A DNA stretch of 33,580 nucleotides from a virus. The notes beneath the pieces were generated by a model, which did no database searches, was not told where the DNA came from, and saw nothing but the letters and a program-made list of their open reading frames with translations. A program made the translations under genes and the position numbers. The stretch spans positions 1-33,580 of the IMG/VR virus record IMGVR_UViG_3300035698_017072; one strand, given 5' to 3'. This document shows positions 964 through 33,580 of the stretch, one piece after another; the stretch's first letter is position 1; every line of letters starts with the position of its first letter.

Positions 964-1772
964 CTTATAGCTAGCCCCCTTAAGGTCTTATAAACATCTG
1001 AAACAGAATAACTTTCCGACTTTTTATAGTTTTCAATAATTCTTGCCGCGACCCCAACAACTACTGCATTATAAAAGCTTGAACCTTTTATTTTTATATA
1101 CTTATCATCAAGAAAAAGAGTCTGTATTTCATTAGATGGAAAAATCAAAGAATGTCCCGAAGAAGACTGGGGGTGCGTGATTTTAGAATCAACTCCGACC
1201 GAAAATACAGTGTCAAATTTAGCGGGATAAGATGCTAAAGAGGCATTCATGGAAGATGAAGCATTAGCCGCAAATATGCATATATTATGATTATATGCTT
1301 TATCTATAACATCATAAAGCATCTGCGACTCTGAGGAGCCCCCAACGCTCATAACTATGATATCAACGTTTCTTACAATACTCCAAAGAATACTAGAAAC
1401 CATAGTATCATAATTGCCATTGCCAGAATCATCAAGAGCCTTTGCGTAATACAGCTTAGCTTTTGGAGCAAGACCCTTGACCTGCTTTTCATTATTGGCT
1501 GCTATGATTCCTGAGATAGCGGTTGCATGACCATTAGAGTCTTTGGGCTGAGATGATTTTTGAGTAAAGTCTGAAACTCGACTCATATCTATTGGAGGCA
1601 TATCCTTATGGCGTACAAAGCCTGAATCAATAATGCATATTTTTACGCCATTGCCTGTACCCCCCACGTGAGAAAGTCCAAAATCAGTTGGCTCGTAAAC
1701 ATGTTGTTTATTTATTCTCGAAGAAGCATATTTTGCGTTTGGCTTTTTACATTTTTTCATCACTGTCTGCAT
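960..1772 (-). CDS. Subtilisin-like serine protease (peptidase family S8)
   Basis: A 270-residue protein with the full subtilisin catalytic set in order: Asp49 in ICIIDSGF, His82 in NGHATAISGIIA, oxyanion Asn170 in IFAANAS and Ser232 in GSSFYNA. The last replaces the usual GTSMAxP, so the proline after the Ser block is missing. There is no signal peptide and almost no propeptide, so it probably acts inside the infected cell or in the virion. The start overlaps the GT9-like gene by 26 nt; an AGG lies about 10 nt upstream of the first ATG, and a second ATG four codons later has no better site. It ends in an ATGA overlap with the fibre-like gene. Its position suggests processing of an adjacent surface or tail protein, which is inference. 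Family assignment is firm; the substrate is unknown. Confidence 0.88.
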   Translation of the reverse strand: MQTVMKKCKKPNAKYASSRINKQHVYEPTDFGLSHVGGTGNGVKICIIDSGFVRHKDMPPIDMSRVSDFTQKSSQPKDSNGHATAISGIIAANNEKQVKGLAPKAKLYYAKALDDSGNGNYDTMVSSILWSIVRNVDIIVMSVGGSSESQMLYDVIDKAYNHNICIFAANASSSMNASLASYPAKFDTVFSVGVDSKITHPQSSSGHSLIFPSNEIQTLFLDDKYIKIKGSSFYNAVVVGVAARIIENYKKSESYSVSDVYKTLRGLAIR

Positions 1773-3234: not shown

Positions 3235-5841
3235 TTATTTTCTCCCATCCCTTGTACTATCCCATATTTCGTCCAGTCTCTTCTTTATTCTTCCAATAGA
3301 TTTCTTGACCGAGCAATTATCGATAATCCAATTTTGAAGATTAACATTCTTATCTTTATAATCTTCAATATTGTCGTATACATCTCTCATCGCTTCAGAC
3401 AAATCCGATATGAATTGATCTGATTTGAGGTTAGGAAATAACTGCCCATCCCAATAATGCACATGCATAGTATTTGGCATTACTTTACTAATACTATCAA
3501 TTTCTACTAAACGACTATTCTTATCGTTTAGAAACATTGTATGTCCGCTATGATTAGTAGCAATGCATGGAAGACCGCATAGGGATGCTTCACAATTGTG
3601 AGCGACACAACTTCCAGATATATAGCACTCATCATCTTTTACATCAAAATTATAAACAACATCAGTATCCTCGTAATGCTCTATCCTAACTACTCGCATA
3701 TATATGTATTTATCAGATTGATATATACGACTAGTAATCTTAGACTTATATACTCTATTATCTTTTTCAATCCAACGATCTTCGTTTTTCCGTAAGCCAT
3801 TTATCTGAACAATCCAATCCCTTCTTCGTCCGCCCCTTGGTTGCGATAAAGAGCAAGGCAAACCAAGATTCATAAGACAAAAATGTAACCTTCTTGATAA
3901 TTTTTCAGAAACACTAGAAGATGTAATACAGTTACCTAACTCACATGAATGTCCATCCCCATTTATGTAGCCATTTATAAATGATTTACAAACCTCTTTT
4001 GTAGAATTTTCTACGAAATCTGGAATTTCTTTATTATCTGATCCTTGACCACAAAAATAATCAAATATATCTGCTATAATACGATTACAAAGAACAACTC
4101 TAGCTGAGTTATCCTTATAATAAACTGAAGATTCTTCTTCAAATATATCTAATAACAATGACTTTACTTCATTGATATATTCTTTTTCGTCCGCATGAAA
4201 ACTAAATTCAACAGCATTCCCTTTGCTAAAAATCGATCCTTCGGCTGCATAGTAGCCAAGTAGTTTTGCAAATTTTTCATCTAAATTCAAATATCTTCTA
4301 ATTGGTTTTTTGTCTTTATTTTTTCCATTAGAATAACAACTATATATTTTTTCTTCTTTTTTAGATTTTTCGATTAGAGGCGAAAAGAAAAAGTCAGTTT
4401 CTACATTATTGATAATATCTAATAAATCAACTGTTTGAAAATCTTGCTCCCAATTTTGCTTGATAGGGAATACAAGATAATGATCTGTAGTTAGGTCTCT
4501 AGCTCTTGCCCATTCCGGAGTCCATGTATCAGTGTCTTCGTCTGCCGTCAAGAACTTTCCACCCTTTCCTCGCTTGGGCTTATATGACAAAAATGCATGA
4601 TTAGAAGTTGCTTCCATAGTGTCAGGATACAGCATGTGCTTTATAGAAGTAAAATCTCCCTCATATTCATTTTTATGAATTTCTGTTACTGCTTTTACAT
4701 TGCCAAATCCAGAATAAATCATGTCTCCTTCTGCAATATCTTGTATAACTTTTTCGCCATTTGGAGTTTGTATTTTTGTATTTTTCTTAAAGCAATAGGG
4801 CATGCCAAAGCCTTCGCCGCGAGAAGGCAGAACGAAAGCATCTCCTGCATTATAAATACGAGGCATCTCATATTCCGGGATAACCCTACTGCATCTTGCT
4901 ATGTGAGGAGGATTGTCTCCGCCGTATTCTTTTAAATACTTATCTATAGCTTCTTTTATAACCCCGCTTCTCTTTTCAGAGTATTGGAAGCGACTCATTA
5001 CCAAGAGAGAGACATCATCATCTCCAGTGAATTCCTGTAGATATGCTTTCAATAAAGCATCATAACCCTTTCTATAGCTCCAACCAAAAATGCTCAAAAA
5101 AGTAAAACCATTCAACTCCGGCCTAAAATCATAAGGCTCATACTCATCGCTGTATAGGCTTGAGTTTATAGGATTAGGCATAACGAGTATATCGCGAGTT
5201 ACTCCGCCCTCTTCAAGTACCTGTTTGCAAAAATCTGAAGTAACCCAAACTTCATTGTAAATATTGCATGCGTCTACAATCTGCTTAGGCACGGAAGCCG
5301 CCTCAATAGTTGTATATAAAATGCGATATGTCTTAGACGAACTAGCATGAGAAAAAGTAGGAATTATACTATCGATAACAATTGCTTCTCTGCCCAGTTT
5401 TTTCTTCAATGGAGCAAGCTGCTTCACTTCAATTTCATTAAGATCATTTTTGCTCGTACTAACAGGTCTTATCTCTACCTTAGCCCCAAGAGCATTTAGA
5501 CCTAATGCTAAAGTTCGATTCACTTTTGGATATCCGCCAGCTTCATAAAAATGGCCTCTAATCGCTACTTCTAAAGTCTCACCGCTTGGCATTAGGCTAT
5601 CCTCTTCTGAATCATTTTGTTCATTTTTATTTTCGCCCTGCAATCGAAGTAGATTCTTTTCAATTCTAGCGTCTTCTATTTCAACTATTTCGATATGACC
5701 GCCTGCAACAAGAGACTGAAACGAATGAGACTTTAGAACGTCTTTCGTTGACAACTCCTGAACCTGGTCTCCGTCAAAGGGGATGCCTGTATCTATATCT
5801 GACAGCCAAATAGAATTGCCTGTATTGTTTATAAACTTCAT
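3235..5841 (-). CDS. GT4-family glycosyltransferase interrupted by an intein
   Basis: An 868-residue precursor counted from the ATG at 5841; an in-frame TTG at 5859 would add six residues, and neither start has a clear ribosome site. Residues 1-60 form a short beta-type N-terminal module. The GT-B region follows, with FGWSYRKGYDALLKAY typical of the GT4 core. The nucleotide-sugar EX7E motif is split: E343 ends the N-extein (EGFGMPY), a 400-residue intein occupies 350-749, and the C-extein resumes CEASLCGLPCIATNHSGH. Splicing would restore E-x7-E exactly and leave a 468-residue enzyme. It probably transfers a hexose from a nucleotide sugar to an unknown acceptor. A terminator-like hairpin sits just upstream. 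Family and intein calls are firm; the acceptor is unknown. Confidence 0.9.
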   Translation of the reverse strand: MKFINNTGNSIWLSDIDTGIPFDGDQVQELSTKDVLKSHSFQSLVAGGHIEIVEIEDARIEKNLLRLQGENKNEQNDSEEDSLMPSGETLEVAIRGHFYEAGGYPKVNRTLALGLNALGAKVEIRPVSTSKNDLNEIEVKQLAPLKKKLGREAIVIDSIIPTFSHASSSKTYRILYTTIEAASVPKQIVDACNIYNEVWVTSDFCKQVLEEGGVTRDILVMPNPINSSLYSDEYEPYDFRPELNGFTFLSIFGWSYRKGYDALLKAYLQEFTGDDDVSLLVMSRFQYSEKRSGVIKEAIDKYLKEYGGDNPPHIARCSRVIPEYEMPRIYNAGDAFVLPSRGEGFGMPYCFKKNTKIQTPNGEKVIQDIAEGDMIYSGFGNVKAVTEIHKNEYEGDFTSIKHMLYPDTMEATSNHAFLSYKPKRGKGGKFLTADEDTDTWTPEWARARDLTTDHYLVFPIKQNWEQDFQTVDLLDIINNVETDFFFSPLIEKSKKEEKIYSCYSNGKNKDKKPIRRYLNLDEKFAKLLGYYAAEGSIFSKGNAVEFSFHADEKEYINEVKSLLLDIFEEESSVYYKDNSARVVLCNRIIADIFDYFCGQGSDNKEIPDFVENSTKEVCKSFINGYINGDGHSCELGNCITSSSVSEKLSRRLHFCLMNLGLPCSLSQPRGGRRRDWIVQINGLRKNEDRWIEKDNRVYKSKITSRIYQSDKYIYMRVVRIEHYEDTDVVYNFDVKDDECYISGSCVAHNCEASLCGLPCIATNHSGHTMFLNDKNSRLVEIDSISKVMPNTMHVHYWDGQLFPNLKSDQFISDLSEAMRDVYDNIEDYKDKNVNLQNWIIDNCSVKKSIGRIKKRLDEIWDSTRDGRK
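3595..4794 (-). mobile_element. Intein with LAGLIDADG homing endonuclease inside the GT4 gene
   Basis: The 400 codons encode a complete class 1 intein. Block A starts at Cys350 with CFKKNTKIQTPNGEKV. Block B is TSNHAFLSY with the expected His. Block F is YNFDVKDDECYISG, and the end is VAHN followed by Cys+1, so the penultimate His748, terminal Asn749 and nucleophile Cys750 are all present. The centre carries two LAGLIDADG motifs, LLGYYAAEGS with Glu534 and FINGYINGDGH with Asp629, about 95 residues apart. Both acidic catalytic residues are kept, so the endonuclease may still be active. The reading frame is intact. By analogy with other inteins it should self-splice from the glycosyltransferase and could home into intein-free alleles. 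Confidence 0.93.
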
Positions 5842-5860
5842 AATGTATTTATCGGCCAAT

Positions 5861-7104: not shown

Positions 7105-8745
7105 CTACAATTCATAGCTCCATCTCTTTTTTCCGCAGTCCCAAATACGATACAGCCCTCTCTCTATCGACCATTCTCGTTCAGTCATTCCATCAGGACA
7201 CTTAACTGCCTTTTTCCTCTGAGACTGTTTCGACTTGTATTCGTTATTTTTTGAATCCCAATAGAAATAATCAGGCTTTAGCTCATCATCTAATTCAAAA
7301 CCTAGCGTCCTATATATATCTCCATTAGTCCAAGAGTTATCTGACCATGATATGATCTTTTCATAACCTTCTTCTTTCGCCCATTTTACAAAACTCTTAA
7401 ACAACCTACTTGCTCCACCAACAACATTATGATCTGCTACCGAACAAAATCTATTCAATACAACAACACTACCTTGCTCCTGCCTATGATGAGATGATGC
7501 TGTCATGCTACTAACTATTTGCTGATTATATTCTAAGTTAAAATATTTTATAGTTCTTCTTCCGTAACCTTGAAGATGATTTATATCGATAAAGTCACGA
7601 CAATTCTTATTGTTAATTTCGCATTTGCGCGCATATATTTGCTTAGAATTTTGATTCAATATATTCTTAATAAAGTTATGATATTTCTCAGGATTTAGAT
7701 CATAATCTCGCTCAAATATATGCAAAAGACGGATACCCTTTTCTTGGCATTTTTTAGTTTTTACATAATGTTTATTCCTAGCATCTTTGGAATCAAGATA
7801 AGCTTCCGAATGCCAATAACTACCATTTAATTCTATAGCAAAATTAAAATCTTTTACAAATATATCTAATTCTAAAGGCGAAATAACTGACCTATCATTT
7901 AATCTAACTTCTAAATCAAAAGATTTAATAAAATTAAAAATCTCTGTCTGCTTCTGATGTGATGGATAAGAATATATAGATCTAAAGCGATCTTTAAATT
8001 CATCTCTCGACAAAGTAGAAGCTACAGACTGGTAAGGAAGATTAAACTTATTACTTGCCTCTTTTATAGACAATCCAGATTCTATCTCTTTCCAAAATGC
8101 CTCGCTTCTTAGTATGTTTATGAGTACATAATTATCATTATCCTTAATTGAATCTTGATAAGATAATAGTCTTTTATTTTTTACACTATTATCCTGATGT
8201 ATATTAGAGCATCCAAATCTCTTTACAACAGTTTCTTTTTGCTTGAGCTTTATTTTTTCCGACTTCAGTGGGTGTTCAACACCATATCTTTCCAGATTTG
8301 TTTTCTTTGATTTTTCTTTTATTTCTTCTAACTGAAAAACATTATCAACTCCATATTTTTCCTGAACCGTATTTTTAACCCTATTCTGATATTCGTCAGT
8401 CTTTTTTGTGTCTGATATCTTTTTACGAATTTGCTTTGAAGTGCTTGCAGACTTTACACCATATCTTTTTAGGTTAGTTTGTTCAGATTTTTTACGAACT
8501 TCAGGATCAGAAAAGGGCGACACCTGCTGCTTCATTTCTTCTATTTTACATTCTTTATGACATGCGGAACCAGATTTTGAAAATGTTCCCTTTCTCAATT
8601 TGTGTGTCTTACCACAATATCTACATGTTGCCACAATAAACTTATTGGAAGTCTTCCCAAGAGTATCCGGATGGTATCCAAATTCTTTTATTGTCTTATC
8701 TGTTAAAATTACAGATTCATAATTGTGTATTTTTCTACTTGACAT
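7105..8745 (-). CDS. Free-standing Vsr-like (EDxHD-type) homing endonuclease
   Basis: A 546-residue protein. The N-terminus has a zinc-finger-like set C41-x2-C44, C62-x3-C66. Residues 85-190 carry four short repeats around [K/R][Y/F]G[V/C], such as TNLERYGVEHPLKSEKIKLK, a modular DNA-binding element seen in phage homing enzymes. The nuclease core at 290-350 shows PLELDIFV (E292, D294), AIELNGSYWHSE (E305, H312) and LLHIFERDYDL (H342, E345, D347), the Vsr-like fold used by the EDxHD family. Residues 375-490 look like a GNAT-type domain. AGGAG 6 nt upstream supports the start. It sits just after the capsid terminator, an intergenic position typical of homing endonucleases. It is the only gene here that ends in TAG. 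It probably spreads itself by cutting the capsid-gene region of related phages. Confidence 0.85.
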   Translation of the reverse strand: MSSRKIHNYESVILTDKTIKEFGYHPDTLGKTSNKFIVATCRYCGKTHKLRKGTFSKSGSACHKECKIEEMKQQVSPFSDPEVRKKSEQTNLKRYGVKSASTSKQIRKKISDTKKTDEYQNRVKNTVQEKYGVDNVFQLEEIKEKSKKTNLERYGVEHPLKSEKIKLKQKETVVKRFGCSNIHQDNSVKNKRLLSYQDSIKDNDNYVLINILRSEAFWKEIESGLSIKEASNKFNLPYQSVASTLSRDEFKDRFRSIYSYPSHQKQTEIFNFIKSFDLEVRLNDRSVISPLELDIFVKDFNFAIELNGSYWHSEAYLDSKDARNKHYVKTKKCQEKGIRLLHIFERDYDLNPEKYHNFIKNILNQNSKQIYARKCEINNKNCRDFIDINHLQGYGRRTIKYFNLEYNQQIVSSMTASSHHRQEQGSVVVLNRFCSVADHNVVGGASRLFKSFVKWAKEEGYEKIISWSDNSWTNGDIYRTLGFELDDELKPDYFYWDSKNNEYKSKQSQRKKAVKCPDGMTEREWSIERGLYRIWDCGKKRWSYEL

Positions 8746-8873: not shown

Positions 8874-9746
8874 TTAGCTGAGTTCAGTGACTTCGATTTT
8901 GCTTATCGCGTAATCGTTGATTACCGCGATTCCAACTTCTTCGTAGATGACCCATCCGAGACGAAGCTTCTTAGGATCGTCTGCTGGAAGAACCGTAATG
9001 TCCTGACGGACAGGGAAGGCTCCAACCGTGTCTGGAGATGCAACTACGAGGACTGTGTTCGAATCCATTCTCGAAGAGACGTGGATATCAGCAGTCCAAA
9101 GGTGACCGTAAAGACCTGTTGTAAGGATTTCACGAGTCGTTGCCTCGTCGTAGAAGTCTTTACCGAATGTACGGATGTCTGCATAACGATTAGCGTGTAC
9201 AACGATTTTTGTTGCAACAAGGTCGTGCTGCTCGATGAAGCGGAAAGCTGCATTAAGGGAAGCTGTTGAAAGCGATCCCATGTCTGTAACGATCTGCGAA
9301 TCACGGTTATCAGCAGCAGCGATAAGGCTGTTGAAGATGTTTGTGTCCTCTTCCTTCTGGATTGCTTCCTTAGCCTTGATCTGCGCGCGGTCTACGATGT
9401 AGAAACGACGTGCCTTGATCTCGGACAAACGAATCGTTGGGTTAGCAGCGATTTCGAATGTAGGTACGAGAATTTCCTCGCCTTCCTGAATCTGGTCAGG
9501 AACAGCACCTCTGCGAGAAAGGACGTGAGCAACGGATGCTACGTCTCTCTCGTAACGGGCTAGAGCGCCCTGAGGTAGCTCGTCAACCATAAGAAGCTTA
9601 CGACCTACTGCTTGGTACTCAAGAGAACGACGAATTGGTTCTACCATTGCCTGCGCAAGTGCGGTACGACCTTCATCTGTTTCGAGAGCTTGCGCGATTA
9701 CGAACTCGCGCTCTTGGTCAGAAAGACCTGTTCTGTTATATGCCAT
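8874..9746 (-). CDS. Major capsid protein (HK97-type fold)
   Basis: A 290-residue protein starting MAYNRTGLSDQEREFVIAQA. It has the expected pattern of an HK97-fold capsid: a helical N-arm, then EGEEILVPTFEIAANPTIRL (E-loop region), a long helix (RRFYIVDRAQIKAKEAIQKE), an NSLIAAADNR spine helix, and a beta-rich P and A domain ending GWVIYEEVGIAVINDYAISK. It is in the right place, after the protease and candidate decoration genes. Its codons are distinctly more GC-rich than those of neighbours (CGT, GTT, AAG-type choices), which fits very high expression. AGGAG 6 nt before the ATG, an upstream sigma70-like promoter and a strong downstream terminator suggest it has its own abundant transcript. 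The protein is shorter than the HK97 capsid itself, but within the fold's range. Confidence 0.85.
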   Translation of the reverse strand: MAYNRTGLSDQEREFVIAQALETDEGRTALAQAMVEPIRRSLEYQAVGRKLLMVDELPQGALARYERDVASVAHVLSRRGAVPDQIQEGEEILVPTFEIAANPTIRLSEIKARRFYIVDRAQIKAKEAIQKEEDTNIFNSLIAAADNRDSQIVTDMGSLSTASLNAAFRFIEQHDLVATKIVVHANRYADIRTFGKDFYDEATTREILTTGLYGHLWTADIHVSSRMDSNTVLVVASPDTVGAFPVRQDITVLPADDPKKLRLGWVIYEEVGIAVINDYAISKIEVTELS

Positions 9747-10422: not shown

Positions 10423-13400
10423 TTATCCTCGTCCATGAAGGGTACGAAGCTCATGGATACTTCCTTCTGTTTCTTCGATCCCCTCAGCAAGTTTATTTTG
10501 CTGATCAAGCTTGAATAGGCCCTGAAGCTTATTCGATAGCTCGCCGCCAGCAGTTCTTACATTGCTATTTTCTGGGATGATCAGGGGTTGTTGAATTCCC
10601 CTCGGAGCCGTGTTAAGACCCTTTGATGCATAAGAAAACATTGACTTCTCTAAATCTTGAATCTGATTTACATCGTACTGCATAAGTTCTTCAACCTTGC
10701 CAAGTAGATTATCAGCGTCAATAAGATCTGCCTTTACCATTCGACCTGCTAGGCCAAATGCTGCTTCCTTGCGAATCTTGGTCTTCTCATCGCCCGATGC
10801 GATGACAGTTCCCTTATCTTGCGTTTGCTTTTCTGGAGCATAACGTTCGTTTTTATCTTTCTTAGAATCTCTTCCGCCGCCCTCTGGGAATTCAGGGTGG
10901 TCAGCGGGAGATTTAGGTACGTCGCCCTGGTCATCCTCATGACCCATGTGAGACTTGTTACCTTGCTCAGGAACATCTACTTCATCAGAATCTTCATGAG
11001 GAGTTCTCTTCATATCTTCTGGAGTATTAGAATGATCCTTATTATTACCAATGGGCTGAATGTCCTTATCATCTGCAACTGGCTTTGGCTCGTCGAGCTT
11101 GCCAGAGGTTGCGATAAGTCTTTCTGCTAAGTCATTCTCTTGAGCCTTTGTTGAGGCAGATCGATTGTTCCCAGCGCCGTCTTCGCCGCCAGTTTGAATT
11201 GTCTGCTTCTCGGCTGAATAGCCCTGATCTTTCTCGTGACCCATTTCTGCATTGCCATGAGGAACTGTTGGGAGAACTTCCTTAGAGTCAAGCCCATCAG
11301 TCTTTTTCTCATTACCCATCTCTGCCTTGCCAGTGAAGACATCAGGACCGGATAGGTCTACATTCTCTTCGTGGCCCATTGTTGCCTTGCCGCCATTGTC
11401 AACATCTCCGAGATCGGAATCATCTTGAACGGGAGAAATCGATATCGCTGAGTCCGCTGCTTTTCTAGTCATCCCAATGGCATCCATTACGCTGGAAACA
11501 TCTAGATCGATTTTTCCATGTCCGGAAATCTTATGGGGCTTGAATGACTGAGCTTCTTTCATAAATCGTTCCTCGTTGGAAGATGCGTAGGATGGTTCGC
11601 CTTCCTTCTCCATATCTTCGCAAGGCTGGCAACTATCTCCTCTTTCTCTTTCTCTATTTTGGCTATTTTCTTCGTCATTAGACATAATGGCTGGCATAGA
11701 TGAGTCCATAGACTCAACGTCGTCGTCGTCGTCGTCGTCGTCGTCTATGTCTTCAATCATTTCGTCGCCTATGTCTTCAACTCCCTCTCCCTCATCAGGA
11801 CCAAGATCGTCTCCGACTTCATTGGCTGCATCTTCAAGAGCATCAACTCCTTCGAGCGTGTTCTCTGCTGCATCTTCAATAGCGTCGGCGGCTTCGCCTG
11901 GAAGTTCTATGAGAGCATCGCCCTCTGGAACATCGCGATGATGCTCTTCTTTCATTGGATCTTCGCCCCTGGCCATATCAATTGCTTGCTCGAACTGATC
12001 AATAATATCTAGAGGTAGTTCAACCGTAATTGAATCTCCACCCTCTTCGACATCGAATGGATCTTCTGAATCAAATGGTGATGGCTGATCATCAATGACA
12101 TCAATTATGTCTATGCCATCTTCAAATCCTCCGTCCATTTCTTCGTCTCCGAATTCGTCGCCTAGTTCATCAGCTAGCATCTCAATAGCTTGAGCATACT
12201 TGGCCTTGATCTTAGAGCATGCGAATACTGAATCTTCAATCTTATATCCATCGCGGATAAAGTCTTCAACGCATTCGTGAGAAGGATCTCTTTCTGTATA
12301 AACTTGAGCTAACTTGATTGCAAGTCCGTCATTGTATATATTTGCTGACTTCATTTGGTTGCATACGCAATCGACTAAGCTTGAACCCTCGCAAGGACCG
12401 CTAAGCGCAAGGGAGTTCTCTCCGAATCGTCTAGCCAACTTTTCGCGACAAGCTTCTACTGGGAATGTTTCGCCAGCATAATTGAATGCCTTCTTGAAAT
12501 CCCCTATAACCGAACCCTTCTTGGATGCAGTCTTGAGGTGCTTGAATGAACCGCTGCTCTGCATTTTTATAATAACATCGCCTCGCTGCTTGACTGTCAT
12601 AGCATCAAATTCTGCTTCAGTTATGCCAATATCCTTAAGTCCTCTGACAAATGCGGTCTTCGCTCTATGGCAAGATGGGCAAGAATCAGCAAGCTTCATA
12701 GGAACAGCGTAGAATCTCCATTCTGCAAATGCTACCTTGTTCTTATTCATTGCAAGACGAACGCCATACTGCTTACCCGTATCAAGGCAGAAGTATTTAT
12801 TGTCTGCAAGCTTCTCTGTATTTGTAGATCCAGTATAAGGACTAACCGTTCCAAAACTGATATTAGATTCTGCTAGCTTCTTAAGTGCGCCTGGTCTAAT
12901 GACGGTTGATGCCGCTACAGGCATTGGATCTTGACCCATGCCTCCCATTCCCATGTCGTCAACAGGTGCTTCATCATCAAGGGCAAAGCCCTGTCCTGCT
13001 GTTTCATCGCCTTCGCCCTCTTCAGTGTCCTCGTCGCTAAGACCGCTCCACTTTGTAACTTCAAGACTGATCTTGTAGTTGAATTCAGATGAACAATTAT
13101 TGCACTTACCTTTGCCCTCTACTATATTTACATCTTCAGAGCCGCAAACTGGACAAATTGATCCAGGTGGCTTGGGCATAAGATCTCCATCTTCGCCTCC
13201 CATGTCGAAGTCGAATTCATCTTCGCCTCCGCCATCAAAGCTTTCTACAGGAGCCACTCCGCCTGCTCCTGGAGGTTGAGGCAGGGTTGCTCCAGCGCCA
13301 GGAGCTTGAGATGCTCCGCCCTGACCACCCATCTGTCCTCCCATCATCTGTGCTTGCTTGATAATCTCTTCCCTTCTTTGCTGTCGAGAAGCATACTTAT

Positions 13401-16296
13401 CTTTGGTGTAATAGGAATCATCAGCGCTATCGTCATCTTGATTTAACATTTTTGCTGCATCTTCATATCTATCTGTTTCTTCCTCAGCGATATCGTCGTC
13501 GTCGTCGTCGTCGTCGTCGTCAGCAATCTTAGAAAGAGAATTTCTTTCCTCAGCCGTCAATACTGACTGCTCTTTGAGCATAACTTGGAATGCGCCATTG
13601 CTATCAACATCAATGTTGGTTACAATAAGGCTGTCGCTTCCTGCTTCTTTCTTAGCAAAAGCAGATGCAGCAGCAACAAAGCCTTTAGCATCAGAATTAT
13701 CTAAGCCAAGGTCTTCCTTTATCGATGCCATAACTCTGTATACTCCATCATCAGAACTATTAATGTCCTTGAATGCTTGACGGAACAAATTGTCATCAGA
13801 AACCCCAACGGCAACTTCCGACCTAGCATTGGCGAGCTTTTCGCGACCTGCTGATTCAGCCTTCTTGAATGCTGCTTCGTCATTTACAACAAAACGCAAA
13901 GCATTTACAAGATCAGTTGCTTTGTAATATGCAACATTGTCTCCGAGAGCAGCCAAGACAAGATCAATTGGCTTTTCATTGATAGACTTGCCATGATAGT
14001 TATTACGATCAACAGATGCTTTTCTTTCCGCAAGCTTGCCTGGCGTTGCATTTATCAATGTTAGATAAGCCGCCTTCATTTGAGAATGAGGAGTTGACAA
14101 TATTGTATTAGTTGCGTTTACGATGTCTGCTGGTGAAAGACTATATGATGCAATTGAGTCAGCAACGGCTTCTGTTGCAGACTTAAGCAGGTTCTTTCTG
14201 TAATCTAAAGCAGATGCGCCTTTCCAGCGAGCCGTATGGTCATTTTCTGTAAGAGCATCTTTTTGACCTGCAAGCTGTCGCTCAGTAATATAGCCAGGAT
14301 CTTCCCAGCGATGGTTTTCGCGAAGAGATGCGAGTTGTTGCTGAGAGATAGACTCTAGCCAATCGCCAGGCAATACAGATCCGACAGCGCTGGAGAAGTC
14401 GGTCCATTGCTTCTCGGTAATAACTTCTGGGAAGTCCTTCCAACGAGCAACGCAACCGTCAGTAACGGCTGCAAATTGTGCTTCTGTTATAAACTCATAG
14501 GCTCCTGCGCGGGTCTGAGGAGATGCAGAATTTGTATCGTTATACGCATCCGAATCTCTACCTAGTTGTTCGTCTGATTGAGTTATGCCTCCGTAGAAGT
14601 TTCCTTCGCTACGAGCGGTATACTCAGGTGTATCCGAATTGGTAAGCTGCTTTTCGGTAATTTGCTCAACCTGTGCAGGCTGAACTCCTGTTCCCGCAGC
14701 TTCTTTTTGGTGCGAATCTTTCATTTTATTGCCTGACTCCTTTGATAGTCTGTGATTCAGAACAAGCTGAGCAGCTTTGCTTGGGTCTTGTGTAATTAGA
14801 TCGCGAAGATCTTTATCTATGCCTGTTGATGCAACAACCGAGATAACATCTTCGTCTCTCAATTCGGAAACAAAAACTTCTCCTGCGTCATCAGCAGAAA
14901 TAACTACTCTATAGTCTCCTGATAACGCTTCTGCCAATCTGCGGGTATTGCTCACAGTATCTCTCCTACTTTGAATATTTGATTCGAGCCACTGCGAGTG
15001 ACTGCAAACGTGCTTTACATCATTCATCAACTTCTCTGCAACTCTAGTAAAGTCCTTCCTAGACTTTTCATTATTTGACGAAAAACTAGGCTTTGTAACG
15101 GTTCCAATGCCGCCCATGTCATTCGATGATGACCCTGGATTCATCTGCGGCATAACAGTCGGAGCTTGCATTGCTGCGGGATCCATCTGTTGTGATCCTC
15201 CATCAGAAGGAGAAGCAGGATCAGTTGTACCTGCTTGAGCCTCTGGAATAGATGGGGAAGGAAGTTGAGGGTATCCCATTTCAATTAGTTCATCAGCCGT
15301 TTCTTGAACCTGAGCAATCGTGTCTACTAGATCGCTTACATAATCCATCGAAACTGACTGCTTTTGGGCCATCATGCTGCGGACAACGCTCTCAAGAAGA
15401 TTCATTGCGTCGTTGAGTTCATTGATCTCTCTTTCCCCTGCAACTTTTTGCAACTTGCCGTTGCCTGCGTCAGCAGCTACCTTGCGAACCTGTCCTGCTA
15501 CCTCAGCAACTCTTTTTCCTAGCAGGTCAAGATTTAAAACATCGCATACTAAGCAGTCATGACATGCCGGATTTACAACAAAGCTATCTTCAATGAATTT
15601 GATATTATAGTTATATTCAAATACAGAAGTATCTTTATGTGCTATTTTATTTGCTTCATCTTTCTTGCATCCACATTTTGGACAATCATCTAAGGGAGAG
15701 CAAGAGCTTTTATGATAAGAACAATCTTGCTTTCCGCTAAATTTCTTATTTTTTCTCTCCGCTACATGAGAACAGAACTCATCGGCAGATGCAGCCTTGT
15801 TATGACAAATGGAACAAAGAGAATAACCAACCTGAGCGCCCATGGACGTTCCGGTTATGTACCCCTCTTCAATTCCTCTGGCCAGCTTAGGGTAGGCTTT
15901 GCGATCTACCATATTGACACAGTAGATGCCATTCATCTTCTCATCGAACCAAGCGTGAGCGACCATGCCTCTTGCTTTTTCAATATCATCATTTTGATGA
16001 TTAACAAAAACAGGAACACCTATAAATGTCTTTGCCGCTTTTTGCAACTCTCCTCCGGAGAAGTAATCGCCATTGTCGTTGATCTCGTCAGCTTTTATGG
16101 CAAAGACCTTAACAAAAAGATGATCTGGATGGTCTCTAATTGCTGCTTGCAAATCGAAACCTCCCAAGTCAGCAGGCTTAGTCTTATCTATAGATGCTAC
16201 CTTGATGTGACTGCTATTGACAAGCTCCCAACCTCTACCCTCTGGTATGTGTAGGGCCTCAGCTTGCAAGCTAGTGGTAGCTGTTTTTTCTATCAT
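10423..16296 (-). CDS. Giant prohead-protease-like protein with scaffold-like C-terminal region
   Basis: The frame opens with a TTG at 16329, but GGAG lies 7 nt before the ATG at 16296, so I choose MIEKTATTSLQAEALHIPEG (1957 residues). Residues 40-260 resemble HK97/S78-type prohead proteases: VFVNHQNDDIEKARGMV with His100, then EEGYITGTSMGAQVGYS with Ser151. A Cys/His cluster follows at once (C161, C164, C175, H177) with more CxxC pairs to about 260. Then come Pro/Gly/Met-rich linkers, ITE-Q repeats (546-700), a helical region, two poly-Asp runs (about 925-934 and 1518-1526), a zinc ribbon from C1048, a Cys-containing domain at about 1130-1400, an acidic region and four MG[H/N]E repeats near the C-terminus. 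Typical prohead proteases have 200-300 residues. It probably cleaves head proteins, and its long tail may act as internal scaffold (inference). Confidence 0.75.
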   Translation of the reverse strand: MIEKTATTSLQAEALHIPEGRGWELVNSSHIKVASIDKTKPADLGGFDLQAAIRDHPDHLFVKVFAIKADEINDNGDYFSGGELQKAAKTFIGVPVFVNHQNDDIEKARGMVAHAWFDEKMNGIYCVNMVDRKAYPKLARGIEEGYITGTSMGAQVGYSLCSICHNKAASADEFCSHVAERKNKKFSGKQDCSYHKSSCSPLDDCPKCGCKKDEANKIAHKDTSVFEYNYNIKFIEDSFVVNPACHDCLVCDVLNLDLLGKRVAEVAGQVRKVAADAGNGKLQKVAGEREINELNDAMNLLESVVRSMMAQKQSVSMDYVSDLVDTIAQVQETADELIEMGYPQLPSPSIPEAQAGTTDPASPSDGGSQQMDPAAMQAPTVMPQMNPGSSSNDMGGIGTVTKPSFSSNNEKSRKDFTRVAEKLMNDVKHVCSHSQWLESNIQSRRDTVSNTRRLAEALSGDYRVVISADDAGEVFVSELRDEDVISVVASTGIDKDLRDLITQDPSKAAQLVLNHRLSKESGNKMKDSHQKEAAGTGVQPAQVEQITEKQLTNSDTPEYTARSEGNFYGGITQSDEQLGRDSDAYNDTNSASPQTRAGAYEFITEAQFAAVTDGCVARWKDFPEVITEKQWTDFSSAVGSVLPGDWLESISQQQLASLRENHRWEDPGYITERQLAGQKDALTENDHTARWKGASALDYRKNLLKSATEAVADSIASYSLSPADIVNATNTILSTPHSQMKAAYLTLINATPGKLAERKASVDRNNYHGKSINEKPIDLVLAALGDNVAYYKATDLVNALRFVVNDEAAFKKAESAGREKLANARSEVAVGVSDDNLFRQAFKDINSSDDGVYRVMASIKEDLGLDNSDAKGFVAAASAFAKKEAGSDSLIVTNIDVDSNGAFQVMLKEQSVLTAEERNSLSKIADDDDDDDDDDIAEEETDRYEDAAKMLNQDDDSADDSYYTKDKYASRQQRREEIIKQAQMMGGQMGGQGGASQAPGAGATLPQPPGAGGVAPVESFDGGGEDEFDFDMGGEDGDLMPKPPGSICPVCGSEDVNIVEGKGKCNNCSSEFNYKISLEVTKWSGLSDEDTEEGEGDETAGQGFALDDEAPVDDMGMGGMGQDPMPVAASTVIRPGALKKLAESNISFGTVSPYTGSTNTEKLADNKYFCLDTGKQYGVRLAMNKNKVAFAEWRFYAVPMKLADSCPSCHRAKTAFVRGLKDIGITEAEFDAMTVKQRGDVIIKMQSSGSFKHLKTASKKGSVIGDFKKAFNYAGETFPVEACREKLARRFGENSLALSGPCEGSSLVDCVCNQMKSANIYNDGLAIKLAQVYTERDPSHECVEDFIRDGYKIEDSVFACSKIKAKYAQAIEMLADELGDEFGDEEMDGGFEDGIDIIDVIDDQPSPFDSEDPFDVEEGGDSITVELPLDIIDQFEQAIDMARGEDPMKEEHHRDVPEGDALIELPGEAADAIEDAAENTLEGVDALEDAANEVGDDLGPDEGEGVEDIGDEMIEDIDDDDDDDDDVESMDSSMPAIMSNDEENSQNRERERGDSCQPCEDMEKEGEPSYASSNEERFMKEAQSFKPHKISGHGKIDLDVSSVMDAIGMTRKAADSAISISPVQDDSDLGDVDNGGKATMGHEENVDLSGPDVFTGKAEMGNEKKTDGLDSKEVLPTVPHGNAEMGHEKDQGYSAEKQTIQTGGEDGAGNNRSASTKAQENDLAERLIATSGKLDEPKPVADDKDIQPIGNNKDHSNTPEDMKRTPHEDSDEVDVPEQGNKSHMGHEDDQGDVPKSPADHPEFPEGGGRDSKKDKNERYAPEKQTQDKGTVIASGDEKTKIRKEAAFGLAGRMVKADLIDADNLLGKVEELMQYDVNQIQDLEKSMFSYASKGLNTAPRGIQQPLIIPENSNVRTAGGELSNKLQGLFKLDQQNKLAEGIEETEGSIHELRTLHGRG
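10930..11395 (-). repeat. MG[H/N]E repeats in the giant protease protein
   Basis: Four copies of a short block are seen: KATMGHEENVD, KAEMGNEKKTD, NAEMGHEKDQGY and SHMGHEDDQGD, spaced by 25-90 residues of charged, disordered sequence. The DNA of the copies is only partly alike, so they are old or selected at protein level. Confidence 0.6.
11719..11744 (-). repeat. GAC trinucleotide run encoding poly-Asp (second)
   Basis: A near-perfect (cgt)n run on the plus strand encodes a stretch of consecutive Asp residues at about 1518-1526 of the giant protein. Such runs can change length by slippage. Confidence 0.8.
13493..13521 (-). repeat. GAC trinucleotide run encoding poly-Asp (first)
   Basis: A (cgt)n run on the plus strand encodes nine consecutive Asp residues at about 925-934 of the giant protein, just before the zinc-ribbon region. 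It is of the same type as the run at 11719-11744. Confidence 0.8.
14218..14661 (-). repeat. ITE-x-Q protein repeats in the giant protease protein
   Basis: About six degenerate units begin ITEKQL (residue 546), ITQSDEQL, ITEAQF, ITEKQW, ISQQQL and ITERQL (residue 670). The better units are 20-24 residues long and often include a basic-aromatic pair such as ARWKD, HRWED or ARWKG before the next unit. The DNA has diverged, so these are protein-level repeats. Confidence 0.75.
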
Positions 16297-16367
16297 GAAA
16301 TAACTCCGCGTAAAAGCATATAATTGCAATTACTTTCTAATGTTGCAAAAAGAATAAAAATCCTCTT

Positions 16368-18058: not shown

Positions 18059-18487
18059 TCAACCCTTGACGTGTCTTGGAATGTATACGCTTTCTAATAT
18101 CTGTACATCATAATCAATTTGATCTTGAGGAAAAGAAACTCCCCATCTTTCCGAGGCATAACTCAAAGCGCCTTTTATTGTTGAAAAATATTCCCCATAT
18201 GGCGAATACATTTTCTTTTCACTACGCTCTTCCTTTGGAGGTAATTTCTTGACACCTGCAAACCATCTTTTACCAACATTTTTTTGTATGGAGGGGCCTA
18301 CAACAACGTAATAATCAGAATCCGTTGTATAATCATGGCCTTCCCACCTCCTGTATGATCCTGGCCCAATTAGAGAATCAAATCTCTTTTTCAAGGGTTC
18401 AGATCTATCTCTATAGACTTCATGCCAAGAGATACCTCTGTCCTTAATGGGCTTATAACCTGCAAGCTTGAAGATATTACGTTCCAA
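18059..18487 (-). CDS. Unrecognised small protein with TTG start
   Basis: A 142-residue protein beginning MERNIFKLAGYKPIKDRGIS. The start codon is TTG, with CAGGAG 9 nt upstream; the site is encoded in the last codons of the portal gene. No ATG occurs before about residue 94, so the TTG is very probably real. The protein is basic and aromatic (GSYRRWEGHDYTTDSDYYVV, RWFAGVKKLP) and likely a single small alpha/beta domain. It shares the portal-protease operon. I recognise no family. An early K-x-A-G (FKLAG) matches the motif described in the findings. Confidence 0.75.
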   Translation of the reverse strand: MERNIFKLAGYKPIKDRGISWHEVYRDRSEPLKKRFDSLIGPGSYRRWEGHDYTTDSDYYVVVGPSIQKNVGKRWFAGVKKLPPKEERSEKKMYSPYGEYFSTIKGALSYASERWGVSFPQDQIDYDVQILESVYIPRHVKG

Positions 18488-18488
18488 G

Positions 18489-20765
18489 TTAATTCACTCC
18501 TGATATCTTTGCGCCTAAGCTATTGACATCAATATCCATTGCGTATTTCATATTCTTCCACTCTTGAGGGGTATTAGCCTTCTTAGAAATAGCTCTTTTT
18601 TGTTTTGAAGCTTCTACCAGTGTGTTATGTATTGCGTCCTGAATTTCATTCATCTTTTCATTGATGGCTTCTTCAGTAAACCTTAGACACGTCCAGCCCA
18701 TCTGTGCAAGCTTAACATCTCTTTCTCTGTCATGAGCTTTATCCTCTGCCGAAGTATGCCACTTCTCGCCATCTGCTTCAATATTTACCCCAACATCAGG
18801 ATAGGCAAAGTCAAGGTTATATGGCTGAGAATTACCTGGTATATCAACTTTGAATTGAGCATAAAGCTGATAAGGTATTTTCATTCCCTGTAATGCATTA
18901 TAAATTTTTATCTCTGGACCAGTCAAGTGGACCATCTGAGTCTGAGACATCATCTGCGATGGCTCGTCGTTGTCATCTGACTTTTTTGGGCCTTTGCCTT
19001 TTTTGAAAACCTTAAGAGGAGCTTCGCCTCCGCCCCCGCCCCCCATCTCTCCTGAAGCTGCGGCTCCCATAGTCGCTCCGCCCATAGGTGCTCCTCCTAT
19101 AGGCGCTCCGCCCATTCCTCCCCCCATATCGCCTCCCATGGGGCCTCCCATGGGGCCTCCGCCCATAGGTGCTCCTCCCATGTCGCCTCCCATGAGGCCT
19201 CCGCCCATGCCACCTCCCGGTGGCATTCCTCCAGGAGGTCCACCTGCGGCTCCCATTCCCTGTCCACCCATTCCAAGTGTAAGTTGCTCCTCTCGACGTT
19301 CCTTGATCATCTGATCATAATCTATATCAAATTGATCTAAGAAATATCTCATAGAGATCATACCTTTGTCATACATTTGCATATACATCTGTAGTTCATT
19401 GGTCTTGTCTCTAAGTCTCAAGTCATTCCATCTAAGATGAGGATAGATATAGATGGGCTCTCCGAGTTCCTTAGTTGCGTCTTCGTCTATAAAGCCCTGC
19501 ATCTGCGCAATAGGCAAAAAGATATTCTTCTCTGCCCACTCCGCTAACTCGTCTCTCCAAGACTGCAAACGACGGATCATGGTCTCTACGCCGACCTGTG
19601 CGTTTTGATAACCGCCCATCTCTCCGTTAAGAAGAGCCTGGTTGAGCATGACCCCATCAAGTATCTCTTTACCAATCTGTTCTACTTCAGCAGTTATGTT
19701 ATGTATGCGACCCGTGGCACCGTACCACTCATAATCAAATGCATGGTGAGTAACGATTGTTAGGTTAGGGTCGTTAGCCACTGCTGCAAGCTGAGATACA
19801 GTATCAGCGATGTCATCAGCCTGAGCAGGTCTGTCCTTGTCTCCAACCTTGACAACACGGATAGGAAGGATCAATCGCTCAGCAATAATCCAGTTTGCTG
19901 TCATAAGCTTAGTTTTATATGCCAAAATTGTAAACAGCCTACGAAGCATTGACTCTCCATAAACTCCATACGGAGCGCCTCCATGCTTGAGGTGGCTAAC
20001 GGATCTATTTGAAAGAGGTATTGGCCTACCCATAAGCACAAGCTGCTTAACCATATTTGGTAAACGATCAAAAATCTGTTTAGGTTGCTGTTTCATAACA
20101 ACCGATTTTAATTCTTCGTCTGGCAACAAAGCGATCAAGGGCTCATCAGCTAACTGATTGTCGCTAACCTCAACCCAGTCTGGATTAAGAATAAGAATTC
20201 TTTTGAATGTTCCATCTGGGTGGTTGCATGCCTCGCCATCATCTGTTACTCCTGATCCTCCACACTGTGGACAGTCAATATCTAAGAAGACAAAAACATC
20301 TCCGAGCAAGAAATATTCATGGCTAATTTTGCGGAACCAAGTATTCAACTGAAGTCTCTCTACTACTCTTTCAAAATACTTCTTTACCTTAGTTGACTTG
20401 CATTCTAATTTAAAACCGTTAATTGGAAACTGAGAATAGAAATCAATTGCCGCTGCGACTTTTGGTTCATTCTCATAATAAAATCTAGCCCATTGATAAA
20501 CTTCTCTACGCTTACTGGCAATCTGCCAGTTTTGCGGAGTATGCAATGGAGAAAAGAACATAGGCTGAGTCCAAGCGACGTTTGCGCCTGATCCAGCAAA
20601 TTGAGCGTTCTTTGTAATAGGTACGGAAGCCATTCCGCCCTTGGAGTATTGGGTAGTTTGTCCCATTGCTCCTTGAATTTCAAAGCCTTTAGCTTTCTTG
20701 ATCAGATTTTTTGTGTTCTGATCAGGAAGCTGAATAGCAAAAGTATTAAAGCTTTTTTTAGCCAT
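18489..20765 (-). CDS. Portal protein with C-terminal DUF559/Vsr-like nuclease domain
   Basis: A 758-residue protein. Residues about 60-490 look like a phage portal: FYYENEPKVAAAIDFYSQFP, HEYFLLGDVFVFLDI, LILNPDWVEV, YGESMLRRLFTIL and the later helical stem and crown with KEILDGVMLNQALLNGEMGG. A zinc-knuckle-like insertion CPQCGG...EACNH (C165, C168, C180, H182) interrupts the core. Residues 498-582 are an extreme Gly/Met/Pro linker. Residues 615-720 are a separate domain with YNLDFAYPDVGVNIEADGEK, WH, RDVKLAQMGWTCLRF, the signature of DUF559/Vsr-like PD-(D/E)XK nucleases. AGAGG 10 nt upstream supports the ATG. It forms the ring through which DNA enters the head. The fusion is unusual. The linker and nuclease stay in frame with no sign of assembly error. 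Confidence 0.85.
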   Translation of the reverse strand: MAKKSFNTFAIQLPDQNTKNLIKKAKGFEIQGAMGQTTQYSKGGMASVPITKNAQFAGSGANVAWTQPMFFSPLHTPQNWQIASKRREVYQWARFYYENEPKVAAAIDFYSQFPINGFKLECKSTKVKKYFERVVERLQLNTWFRKISHEYFLLGDVFVFLDIDCPQCGGSGVTDDGEACNHPDGTFKRILILNPDWVEVSDNQLADEPLIALLPDEELKSVVMKQQPKQIFDRLPNMVKQLVLMGRPIPLSNRSVSHLKHGGAPYGVYGESMLRRLFTILAYKTKLMTANWIIAERLILPIRVVKVGDKDRPAQADDIADTVSQLAAVANDPNLTIVTHHAFDYEWYGATGRIHNITAEVEQIGKEILDGVMLNQALLNGEMGGYQNAQVGVETMIRRLQSWRDELAEWAEKNIFLPIAQMQGFIDEDATKELGEPIYIYPHLRWNDLRLRDKTNELQMYMQMYDKGMISMRYFLDQFDIDYDQMIKERREEQLTLGMGGQGMGAAGGPPGGMPPGGGMGGGLMGGDMGGAPMGGGPMGGPMGGDMGGGMGGAPIGGAPMGGATMGAAASGEMGGGGGGEAPLKVFKKGKGPKKSDDNDEPSQMMSQTQMVHLTGPEIKIYNALQGMKIPYQLYAQFKVDIPGNSQPYNLDFAYPDVGVNIEADGEKWHTSAEDKAHDRERDVKLAQMGWTCLRFTEEAINEKMNEIQDAIHNTLVEASKQKRAISKKANTPQEWKNMKYAMDIDVNSLGAKISGVN
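18606..18923 (-). other. DUF559/Vsr-like nuclease domain at the portal C-terminus
   Basis: Residues 615-720 of the portal. Asp652 (LDFAYP), Glu663 and Asp665 (IEADG), Trp669-His670 and the RDVKLAQMGWTCLRFTEEAI helix-strand unit match the DUF559 pattern of catalytic D, E-x-D-G, W-H, and RDxxLxxxGWxxLRF. The candidate catalytic residues are all present. Confidence 0.8.
19014..19272 (-). repeat. Gly/Met/Pro-rich linker repeats in the portal gene
   Basis: Degenerate copies of codons for GGxMGG and GGAPMGG repeat through portal residues 498-582. On the plus strand this appears as many cctcccat/cgcctcccat units. It joins the portal core to the nuclease domain and is probably flexible. Confidence 0.75.
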
Positions 20766-31422: not shown

Positions 31423-33339
31423 TTAATATCCTGCTCTATTATTCCACGCCTGAGAGCGATTTTCTAGGTCCCTGGAGACTTGTTGTCCCGTTCCTGTTCC
31501 CAATACGCCCTGCATGGTTCTCCAGGTTTGCTGTCCTGCCCCTGATGATACTGCATTATCAACAAGTTTTCCTTGAGGTAATTTTGTTACTTGATGATCG
31601 ACACAGTTGTATACTGCCCCTGCCAGGGCATCGACCAAATCATCTGTATTTATATCAGAATCGGCCTTTGGAAATACCTTATATTTAGTAGAATGTCCTA
31701 GCCATTTTCTTTGAAGATTAGCCATCTCTCGTTGCAGCCTAGGATGGTCTGGAATCAATAATCTTCCTGACATTGCCAATTCTGATAAGTTATCATAGAT
31801 TTTAACTTTATTTCGCGCGCTGAATGTCAACTCCTTGCATGGAATGGCGTGTTTTCTAAGATTTTGAATAGAATTCTGAGAATTCCATTGATCATAAGTC
31901 ACCACTCCAAATCTAAACTTTCTACTATACTTTATAACTTCCTGATCTATAACTGAAGATACAATGGGCTCTCCTGGCTTAGGAGACCAGAACCTAACAT
32001 GATCCACAATTACACAAAACTCTCTGCAACCTCTCTCTGTGTCATAGTAATATTCTTTATGACAAATGCAAAGAGCATAATTATGACTAGAAGCCGCTGG
32101 ATCCAAATGAGCATAATATATAGTATTTGGCTGTCCAAGATCCTTAAACTTAAGATCTTTCTTGCGGAAACAAGATTCTATCTCTTCTTTCTGAAAGAAG
32201 TTATCTCCTGCCGTGCCTGAGAATTCTGCTCCAAATTCCATGTGGAACTTTTCAGGTGACATGTCTGGAAATTCATTAAGCAGACCATCTTCTGATTGTC
32301 GCGGACTAACCTTCCAAGTAGGGAGCCTGCACATGAGTCTGTGCTTTACCTTAGCAGCATTATTATATAACTTGAAGAAAATGCCGTCTTCGCCGCGAGG
32401 TGATGAAATGCATATAATTTTACCGTCATAGACGCTCTTTAAGGATGGCTGACCCTTCTCGTCATAAATTACCTCTCCGTCTTTATCTGTTGCAATTTCT
32501 TGCCGAACATAAGTAGCAACAGTAGGAGTAAGAGCACCATAAAGTTCTTCACCAGAAGATGGTCCTGATGTATTCTTGTAAAGACCAATCTCGTCAAAAA
32601 TAACAACAAAACAACCTTTACCTACAAGCGATGTAGATTCAGAGTGACCTGTTTGAATAAGTATTGATCCCAATCTAGGAGAAAGCCCTCTGCCCTCCCT
32701 CTCTTTATTCTCTGCTATGTCGCGAGGAGTGAGCAAGTATATTTCTCCGTCCTTTGCTACACCTTCTTTTATAAATCTATGTCTGAAGTAAGGACTGTTG
32801 TGAAGCTTGCCTGCAATTTCCTTATAAGCAATCTTAGCCTGCTCTTTAGCATTAGCAATGGTAAGAATGGTAATAGTAGAAGCATCTCCAAGCCCGTAGA
32901 AACGGTGAGGATCTCCTCCGGGGCATTCGATTAGTTTTAATGCTTCGTATAGAGCTAAGATAGAAGCAAAGAAATCTTTTCCGCTTCGTCGTCCCCAAAC
33001 CAAAACTAGCTCTCTAAACAACTCGCCAGTATAGTATTTATCAATAATGTTTCCGTTATTATCGTCGTTGAGTCCTAGATCTTTGCATATCTCCATTTCC
33101 TCTTCTGTAAGTCGGAGGTCTTCATTTCCTGGAGATCCTCTATAGAATGTCTTCAGAACAACTCTCTGCGCGGGATATAAAGTTATACCGCGTTTATTTA
33201 ATCCTAAATATTTATCAGACTCTACAAACTCGATAATGCTTGGAACGTAACCAGATGCAGTTAGCTCTGCACCTCCTATAACATCCTGCTTTAACTGACC
33301 TGCAAGATCAGATAGGTTGATTTTTTCTTTTTTCGCCAT
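31423..33339 (-). CDS. terL: Terminase large subunit (TerL)
   Basis: The frame opens at 33399, but AAAGGA lies about 8 nt before the ATG at 33339, so I choose MAKKEKINLSDLAGQLKQDV (638 residues). The ATPase half shows Walker A WGRRSGKD (115-122, Lys121), Walker B VVIFDE (245-250, Glu250) and coupling motif ISSPRG (311-316). The nuclease half shows YYAHLDPAAS (Asp413), VTYDQWNS (Asp483) and TDDLVDALAG (Asp567/Asp570), the three acidic positions of an RNase H-like nuclease. It packages DNA into the prohead through the portal and cuts it at the end. No small terminase is visible nearby. It starts the long operon that runs to the portal. Confidence 0.97.
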   Translation of the reverse strand: MAKKEKINLSDLAGQLKQDVIGGAELTASGYVPSIIEFVESDKYLGLNKRGITLYPAQRVVLKTFYRGSPGNEDLRLTEEEMEICKDLGLNDDNNGNIIDKYYTGELFRELVLVWGRRSGKDFFASILALYEALKLIECPGGDPHRFYGLGDASTITILTIANAKEQAKIAYKEIAGKLHNSPYFRHRFIKEGVAKDGEIYLLTPRDIAENKEREGRGLSPRLGSILIQTGHSESTSLVGKGCFVVIFDEIGLYKNTSGPSSGEELYGALTPTVATYVRQEIATDKDGEVIYDEKGQPSLKSVYDGKIICISSPRGEDGIFFKLYNNAAKVKHRLMCRLPTWKVSPRQSEDGLLNEFPDMSPEKFHMEFGAEFSGTAGDNFFQKEEIESCFRKKDLKFKDLGQPNTIYYAHLDPAASSHNYALCICHKEYYYDTERGCREFCVIVDHVRFWSPKPGEPIVSSVIDQEVIKYSRKFRFGVVTYDQWNSQNSIQNLRKHAIPCKELTFSARNKVKIYDNLSELAMSGRLLIPDHPRLQREMANLQRKWLGHSTKYKVFPKADSDINTDDLVDALAGAVYNCVDHQVTKLPQGKLVDNAVSSGAGQQTWRTMQGVLGTGTGQQVSRDLENRSQAWNNRAGY

Positions 33340-33362
33340 AATATATTCCTTTATATTTAGGC

Positions 33363-33580
33363 TTAGGCGAAGAATCCTCCGACGATCCAAGCATACCATG
33401 TCACTCCAGCATCTACACTAACAAACTTAATCATATGTATACCAGCTATCTGTGACCCGCTTGTTCCCATGTTATTAAAAACATCGTCAGTGGCGTCATC
33501 TCCGCCAGGCCATCTAGTTCCGCCCGGCCAAGAGACCGAACTATAAGTAAAAGTATCTCTTCTATCAATTATAAGAGTAA
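33363..33580 (-). CDS. C-terminal end of an unidentified structural protein (runs off the window)
   Basis: A minus-strand frame is open from the window edge to a TAA at 33363, giving about 72 residues: TLIIDRRDTFTYSSVSWPGG, then two close RWPGG-type turns, then IAGIHMIKFVSVDAGVTWYA and WIVGGFFA. The alternating hydrophobic pattern and aromatic Gly-rich end look like the beta-rich C-terminus of a phage tail or fibre protein. It stops 24 nt before the TerL ATG. The call rests on composition and place only. Confidence 0.55.
   Translation of the reverse strand, partial: TLIIDRRDTFTYSSVSWPGGTRWPGGDDATDDVFNNMGTSGSQIAGIHMIKFVSVDAGVTWYAWIVGGFFA

Follow-up and report, generated by a model that had tools for sequence, protein, structure and literature searches.

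A DUF559/Vsr-like nuclease domain joined to the portal protein in a lineage of very large, uncultured tailed phages

Portals are among the most conserved parts of phages and are regarded as passive gates. A first-pass annotation, made from the sequence alone, proposed that one open reading frame (ORF) of an IMG/VR virus record (IMGVR_UViG_3300035698_017072, whose 33,580 nucleotides were analysed as a whole and are called the window here) joins a portal protein to a nuclease, and one may ask how a nuclease and a packaged genome could coexist at such a gate. With a covalent portal nuclease fixed in very large phages, the idea that DNA is processed enzymatically from the capsid interior becomes testable, and the fusion offers a defined single-chain target for further study.

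One reading frame, two protein families

The fusion ORF starts with ATG and runs in a single frame without an internal stop or frameshift. Its residues 52-427 belong to portal family phrog_16240 (PHROGs, E = 8e-47) and residues 247-480 match Pfam Portal_Mu (E = 1e-6), while residues 648-716 match Pfam DUF559 (PF04480) with 33.5 bits against a curated cut-off of 20.6 (E = 4e-8; E = 5e-11 in another search). The gene sits in a head and packaging module with the genes for the terminase large subunit (TerL) and the major head protein, as a tailed-phage portal gene should (Table 1). These results confirmed that a portal core and a DUF559/Vsr-like domain share one ORF, and the fusion is real, well beyond chance. 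All of the family residues that the first-pass annotation had named were there (D652, E663, D665, W669-H670 and RDVKLAQMGWTCLRF). It had also described an 85-residue linker rich in Gly, Met and Pro; the composition was right (45 Gly, 16 Met and 12 Pro among 111 residues), but the length is about 111 residues (498-608), and disorder was predicted over residues 501-608 (AF2 pLDDT <50).

Table 1. Features of the fusion ORF and of neighbouring genes in the window
Feature	Position	Strand	Basis or remark
Portal-nuclease fusion ORF (758 aa)	18489..20765	minus	ORF list and translation; Pfam and PHROGs
Portal core, residues 61-497 (wing, stem, clip, crown)	19275..20585	minus	phrog_16240; identity to phage G gp14; AF2 model
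Flexible Gly/Met/Pro-rich linker, residues 498-608	18942..19274	minus	AF2 pLDDT, dN/dS, composition
DUF559/Vsr-like PD-(D/E)XK nuclease domain (predicted), residues 612-720	18606..18932	minus	Pfam, AF2, Foldseek, dN/dS
Active-site segment D652 to D683 (D652, E663, D665, G666, H670, D679, R682, D683)	18717..18812	minus	Alignment of 77 domains
Variable basic C-terminal tail, residues 721-758	18492..18605	minus	Poorly conserved in alignments
142-aa gene directly downstream of portal	18059..18487	minus	Most consistent portal neighbour; candidate partner
Terminase large subunit (TerL)	31423..33399	minus	phrog_2, E = 1.5e-20 over 129-606; phrog_2699 over 484-605
1968-aa head protein with N-terminal maturation-protease-like region	10423..16329	minus	phrog_18299 head maturation protease, E = 1.5e-13 over 69-206
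Major head protein	8874..9746	minus	phrog_2522, E = 3e-66; 80-84% identity in relatives
Free-standing Vsr-like homing endonuclease	7105..8745	minus	phrog_3339, DUF7487; adjoins major head protein gene; not found in the loci of relatives
Glycosyltransferase-like ORF	3235..5859	minus	Split by an intein-like insert that matches LAGLIDADG and Hint
Subtilase-family (Peptidase_S8) protein	960..1772	minus	Near head genes

Structure prediction pointed the same way. The AF2 model of the isolated C-terminal domain, built from 77 aligned domains, had a mean pLDDT of 87 and a pTM of 0.78, and Foldseek matched it to NGO0050 (3HRL; E = 4.5e-4, TM 0.76 normalised to the target) and to the catalytic domain of I-Bth0305I (3R3P; E = 7.6e-4, TM 0.82 normalised to the target), with Vsr itself (1CW0) further down the list (E = 0.028). 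A sequence profile of the domain also retrieved 3HRL and 3R3P, the I-Bth0305I match having E = 3e-7. The full-length model was weaker overall (mean pLDDT 68.8, pTM 0.50) because of its N-terminus and linker, although most core blocks reached a pLDDT of 80-95; residues 731-758 of the C-terminal tail were of low confidence. It gave 131 PDB matches (E <= 0.001), of which the best 50 were portal, neck or connector structures. These models predict a portal fold for the core and, for residues 599-758, a PD-(D/E)XK fold of the Vsr-like branch, as the annotation had anticipated. Both halves of the fusion belong to known families and hold up in the family tests applied.

In nearly every relative whose sequence extends that far, the 142-aa gene comes immediately after the portal. 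Its homologues, in 131 sequence entries that overlap in content, amount to 75 distinct sequences, and the product has conserved W-x-E-x-Y and RWEGHDYTT motifs and no match in Pfam or PHROGs.

Distribution, selection and co-inheritance

When viral contigs were scanned for the portal core and for the nuclease, all of the 100 distinct relatives whose C-terminus was complete carried the nuclease domain. As the nuclease scan would bias this figure, we counted separately the loci from two portal scans, whose peptide patterns lay wholly (one scan) or mostly (the other) within the core, and found the domain in 69 of 69. Portals of the lineage without it were only ORFs cut by contig ends, and apart from L108, which is a fragment likewise cut by a contig end, all matches of the nuclease-only scan lay in portal fusions. 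The relatives came from many metagenomes and from contigs of up to 548 kb, and each of seven records of 296-548 kb had the domain in its portal. None of the relatives encodes the two parts as separate or frameshifted genes, the arrangement that the annotation had said would count against it. The nuclease-bearing portal is fixed throughout a lineage of very large, uncultured tailed phages. No relative was found in the bacterial and archaeal genomes scanned, and the named phage records searched yielded, at the sensitivity used, neither a portal-nuclease fusion nor a named phage of the lineage. Among the predicted viral structures of BFVD, the best named matches were free-standing DUF559 or endonuclease proteins, none of them named portal.

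The putative active site was strongly conserved. Residues T615, E618, Q637, D652, E663, G666, H670, D679, R682, D683, L686, G690, W691 and R695 were invariant in 77 of 77 domains, and position 665 was Asp in 75 and Glu in two, so that the PD-(D/E)XK catalytic residues D652, E663, H670 and D679 were intact in all 77 and D665 in 75. Median dN/dS was 0.079 for the nuclease, 0.092 for the core and 0.29 for the linker over 159 pairs. Since many of these pairs are near synonymous saturation and not mutually independent, more weight can be placed on differences between regions than on the values themselves. By this comparison, the nuclease is under purifying selection equal to that on the core, with the linker under looser constraint. 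Core and nuclease identities were correlated (r = 0.94; none of 2000 permutations as high), and the two parts have therefore been inherited together.

In four relatives (L017, L072, L078 and L106), and in a fifth (L100) that is cut by a contig end, an intein-like insert separates E663 from D665, and position 664 holds the Cys at its downstream junction. Of the four complete inserts, three matched Intein_splicing below its cut-off and all matched LAGLIDADG_3, two of them above the cut-off. Inteins generally persist at sites from which they cannot be lost imprecisely without ruining an essential protein, and inserts within the E-x-D-G motif fit an essential active site. The invariant active site, the low, core-level dN/dS and these inteins support the suggestion in the annotation that the domain is selected for nuclease activity.

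Inserts are not confined to this motif. Among 105 distinct portals of the lineage (L002-L181), 52 have in-frame insertions of more than 100 aa, one to four per core, and the insertions tested (in the L023 core and in the nuclease motif) matched intein or LAGLIDADG models. The linker varies as well, being longer in the L143-L181 subgroup (about 170-200 residues), where a recurring Y-D-G-L/F...GG...P-L-N segment replaces the Gly/Met-rich repeat and the basic motif.

Position in the head and possible functions

The stem, wing and crown of the T4 portal lie within the capsid and its clip outside (PMC9958956), and GFP placed on the C-terminus of T4 gp20 was located in the prohead interior (PMC10893049). 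In our model, helices 455-501, which come after the long helix 390-423, appear to take the position of the crown. Given these modelled helices and the interior location of the T4 crown and gp20 C-terminus, the tether most likely leads into the head. Because portal C-termini lie on the head-interior side, the likeliest arrangement is that up to twelve tethered nuclease domains, as many as the annotation had envisaged, surround the DNA entry point on the crown side within the capsid, and the virus most likely keeps these domains within its own head.

Our preferred reading, held tentatively and at rather less than an even chance, is a housekeeping role in which the putative nuclease processes the phage's own DNA during packaging or head maturation. 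A Vsr/DUF559-family endonuclease domain would have become a permanent part of each portal subunit by way of a long disordered tether that exits the crown, so that the domains would ring the site where DNA enters the head. There the metal-dependent enzyme would routinely work on the DNA of the phage itself: it might, for example, nick or cut DNA that is aberrant, branched or stalled on emerging into the head, or release the end of a genome that has stalled. It would be a built-in equivalent of nucleases that are recruited to the packaging machinery in other phages. T4 endonuclease VII is described as associating with packaging proteins and the portal and as releasing stalled branched DNA (PMC10893049), and the non-specific DNase activity of T4 gp4 is reported to be necessary for packaging (PMC7824862). 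A search for four resolvase families in the seven large records, which may be incomplete, found no canonical resolvase over the cut-off in six of the seven (RuvC in 0/7, RusA in 0/7, T7 endonuclease I in 0/7 and endonuclease VII in 1/7), which weakly favours a packaging role, and one constant domain under portal-like constraint fits housekeeping better than it fits a swappable effector.

Several observations speak against this packaging role. A nuclease in the interior would have difficulty in acting on a branch held up at the terminase, outside the head, and the phage G-type relatives described below manage without the domain. No obvious step is missing either, since TerL retains recognisable ATPase and nuclease motifs and with them would make the ordinary packaging cuts; for the same reason we rejected the idea that the domain replaces the terminase nuclease. 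A nuclease free in the head would also endanger the packaged genome, and would therefore have to be structure-specific, modification-sensitive or restrained.

The interior position is, on the other hand, fully compatible with an ejected effector, in which the portal-borne nuclease would be freed by the head maturation protease or at ejection, enter the new host with the genome and cut DNA without the phage's modification, whether of the host, of a plasmid or of a rival phage. Three genes downstream of the portal lies the coding sequence for a maturation-protease-like region, and the linker would be accessible to a protease because it is predicted to be disordered. There is also a precedent in the portal-binding MuF proteins, which have toxin domains at the C-terminus; a nuclease domain is present in over half of the putative toxins (PMC5576092), and the proteins are hypothesised to be delivered together with DNA (PMC5576092; PMC3482391). 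DUF559-like domains, moreover, weakly match defence-system proteins. Such effectors are polymorphic, however, whereas a single domain that evolves as slowly as the portal is constant here, and a covalently attached domain would need cleavage in order to leave. We saw no clade-wide cleavage motif at the linker end, K-x-x-K-[RK]-G being absent in the L143-L181 group. We regard delivery at ejection as unlikely but as the strongest of the rivals: the constant, slowly evolving domain favours packaging, while the interior site counts against resolving branches outside and is compatible with ejection.

These same considerations place third, as improbable, a DNA-holding module that would anchor the last-packaged end or gauge fullness by binding DNA near the portal, with catalysis unused. 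The T4 crown and wing do touch packaged DNA (PMC9958956) and Vsr-like folds bind DNA, but the domain is acidic (computed pI 4.8), all of its metal and catalytic positions are invariant, which is more than binding would demand, and it is the catalytic motif that the inteins target.

We give a slim chance to a mobile endonuclease, domesticated or still selfish, that came from a free-standing or an intron or intein homing endonuclease and would cut rival portal genes and so spread its own portal allele. I-Bth0305I, one of the two best matches among solved structures, is a homing endonuclease, the portal genes of the lineage are rich in inteins, and the window itself encodes a free-standing Vsr-like endonuclease. 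That endonuclease is nonetheless distant from the portal domain (E = 0.002), which in sequence comes closest to DUF559-helicases and to DUF559 proteins from plasmids of Bacillales; a tree with outgroups, built to see whether the nuclease had a single origin, did not separate the portal nucleases from these plasmid and helicase domains (support 0.57). Instead of the sporadic presence expected of a homing gene, the portal domain is fixed in all complete relatives, with no empty site in the lineage, and is inherited with the core, and a subunit of a virion ring is an unlikely home for a homing enzyme. An artefact (an assembly chimera, a frameshift or a misannotated neighbouring gene) has virtually no probability and is already refuted, because the relatives from many metagenomes share a single open frame.

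We see a nearly even prospect that in this huge-phage lineage the DNA gate carries up to twelve active endonucleases within the capsid, on the same side as the packaged genome. The lineage would then need some mechanism, specific to structure or to modification, by which its own packed DNA is spared while incoming DNA is checked or the ejected genome is armed.

Comparison with known systems

Both families are known, and their permanent covalent union in a portal-DUF559 fusion was not described in the literature searched, a scope outside which most subscription journals lay. The nearest named relatives of the fusion are the portals of the Bacillus phage G type. The gp14 portal of phage G (Donellivirus type) is 31.7% identical to the core over residues 61-494 and has a low-complexity Gly/Pro tail after it, but in the ten loci of this type that we retrieved, phage G included, the tail is disordered and no nuclease domain was seen; most of these tails end in a short charged segment. 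The portals of LR745208, Rctr197k and mycobacteriophage Tonenili are also without the domain. A different portal fusion occurs in the sister group, where the portal ORF of one phage G-type contig (L186; 1016 aa) continues in frame into a product whose likeness to phage G gp15 was judged by eye. We considered gp15 as a MuF protein and rejected this for want of Pfam support.

On the nuclease side, I-Bth0305I shares the PD-(D/E)XK Vsr-like fold in its catalytic domain, but it is a homing endonuclease of a mobile intron and is unattached to a virion protein. DUF559 proteins (PF04480), such as NGO0050, those of Bacillales plasmids and the phage DUF559-helicases, form the family that the portal domain matches above the cut-off and have the same motifs; they differ in being single-domain or helicase-fused, with none fused to a portal among the named phage and plasmid records searched.

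T4 endonuclease VII (Golz and Kemper 1999, as cited in PMC10893049) is a nuclease associated with the portal gp20 that helps packaging past branches, but it is a separate protein of another fold and its association is non-covalent. The head-completion nuclease of the T4 gp4 type (TnsA-like) is virion-associated, has a REase fold and is reported to be necessary for packaging (PMC7824862), whereas it, too, is a separate protein and belongs to another REase family. The MuF polymorphic toxins of temperate phages are portal-associated head proteins whose C-terminal domain is often a nuclease (PMC5576092), and Pfam gave no match to a MuF domain within the fusion. In those toxins the carrier is MuF and the toxin domain is swapped among members, whereas in the fusion the carrier is the portal itself and the nuclease domain is the same in all of its complete relatives.
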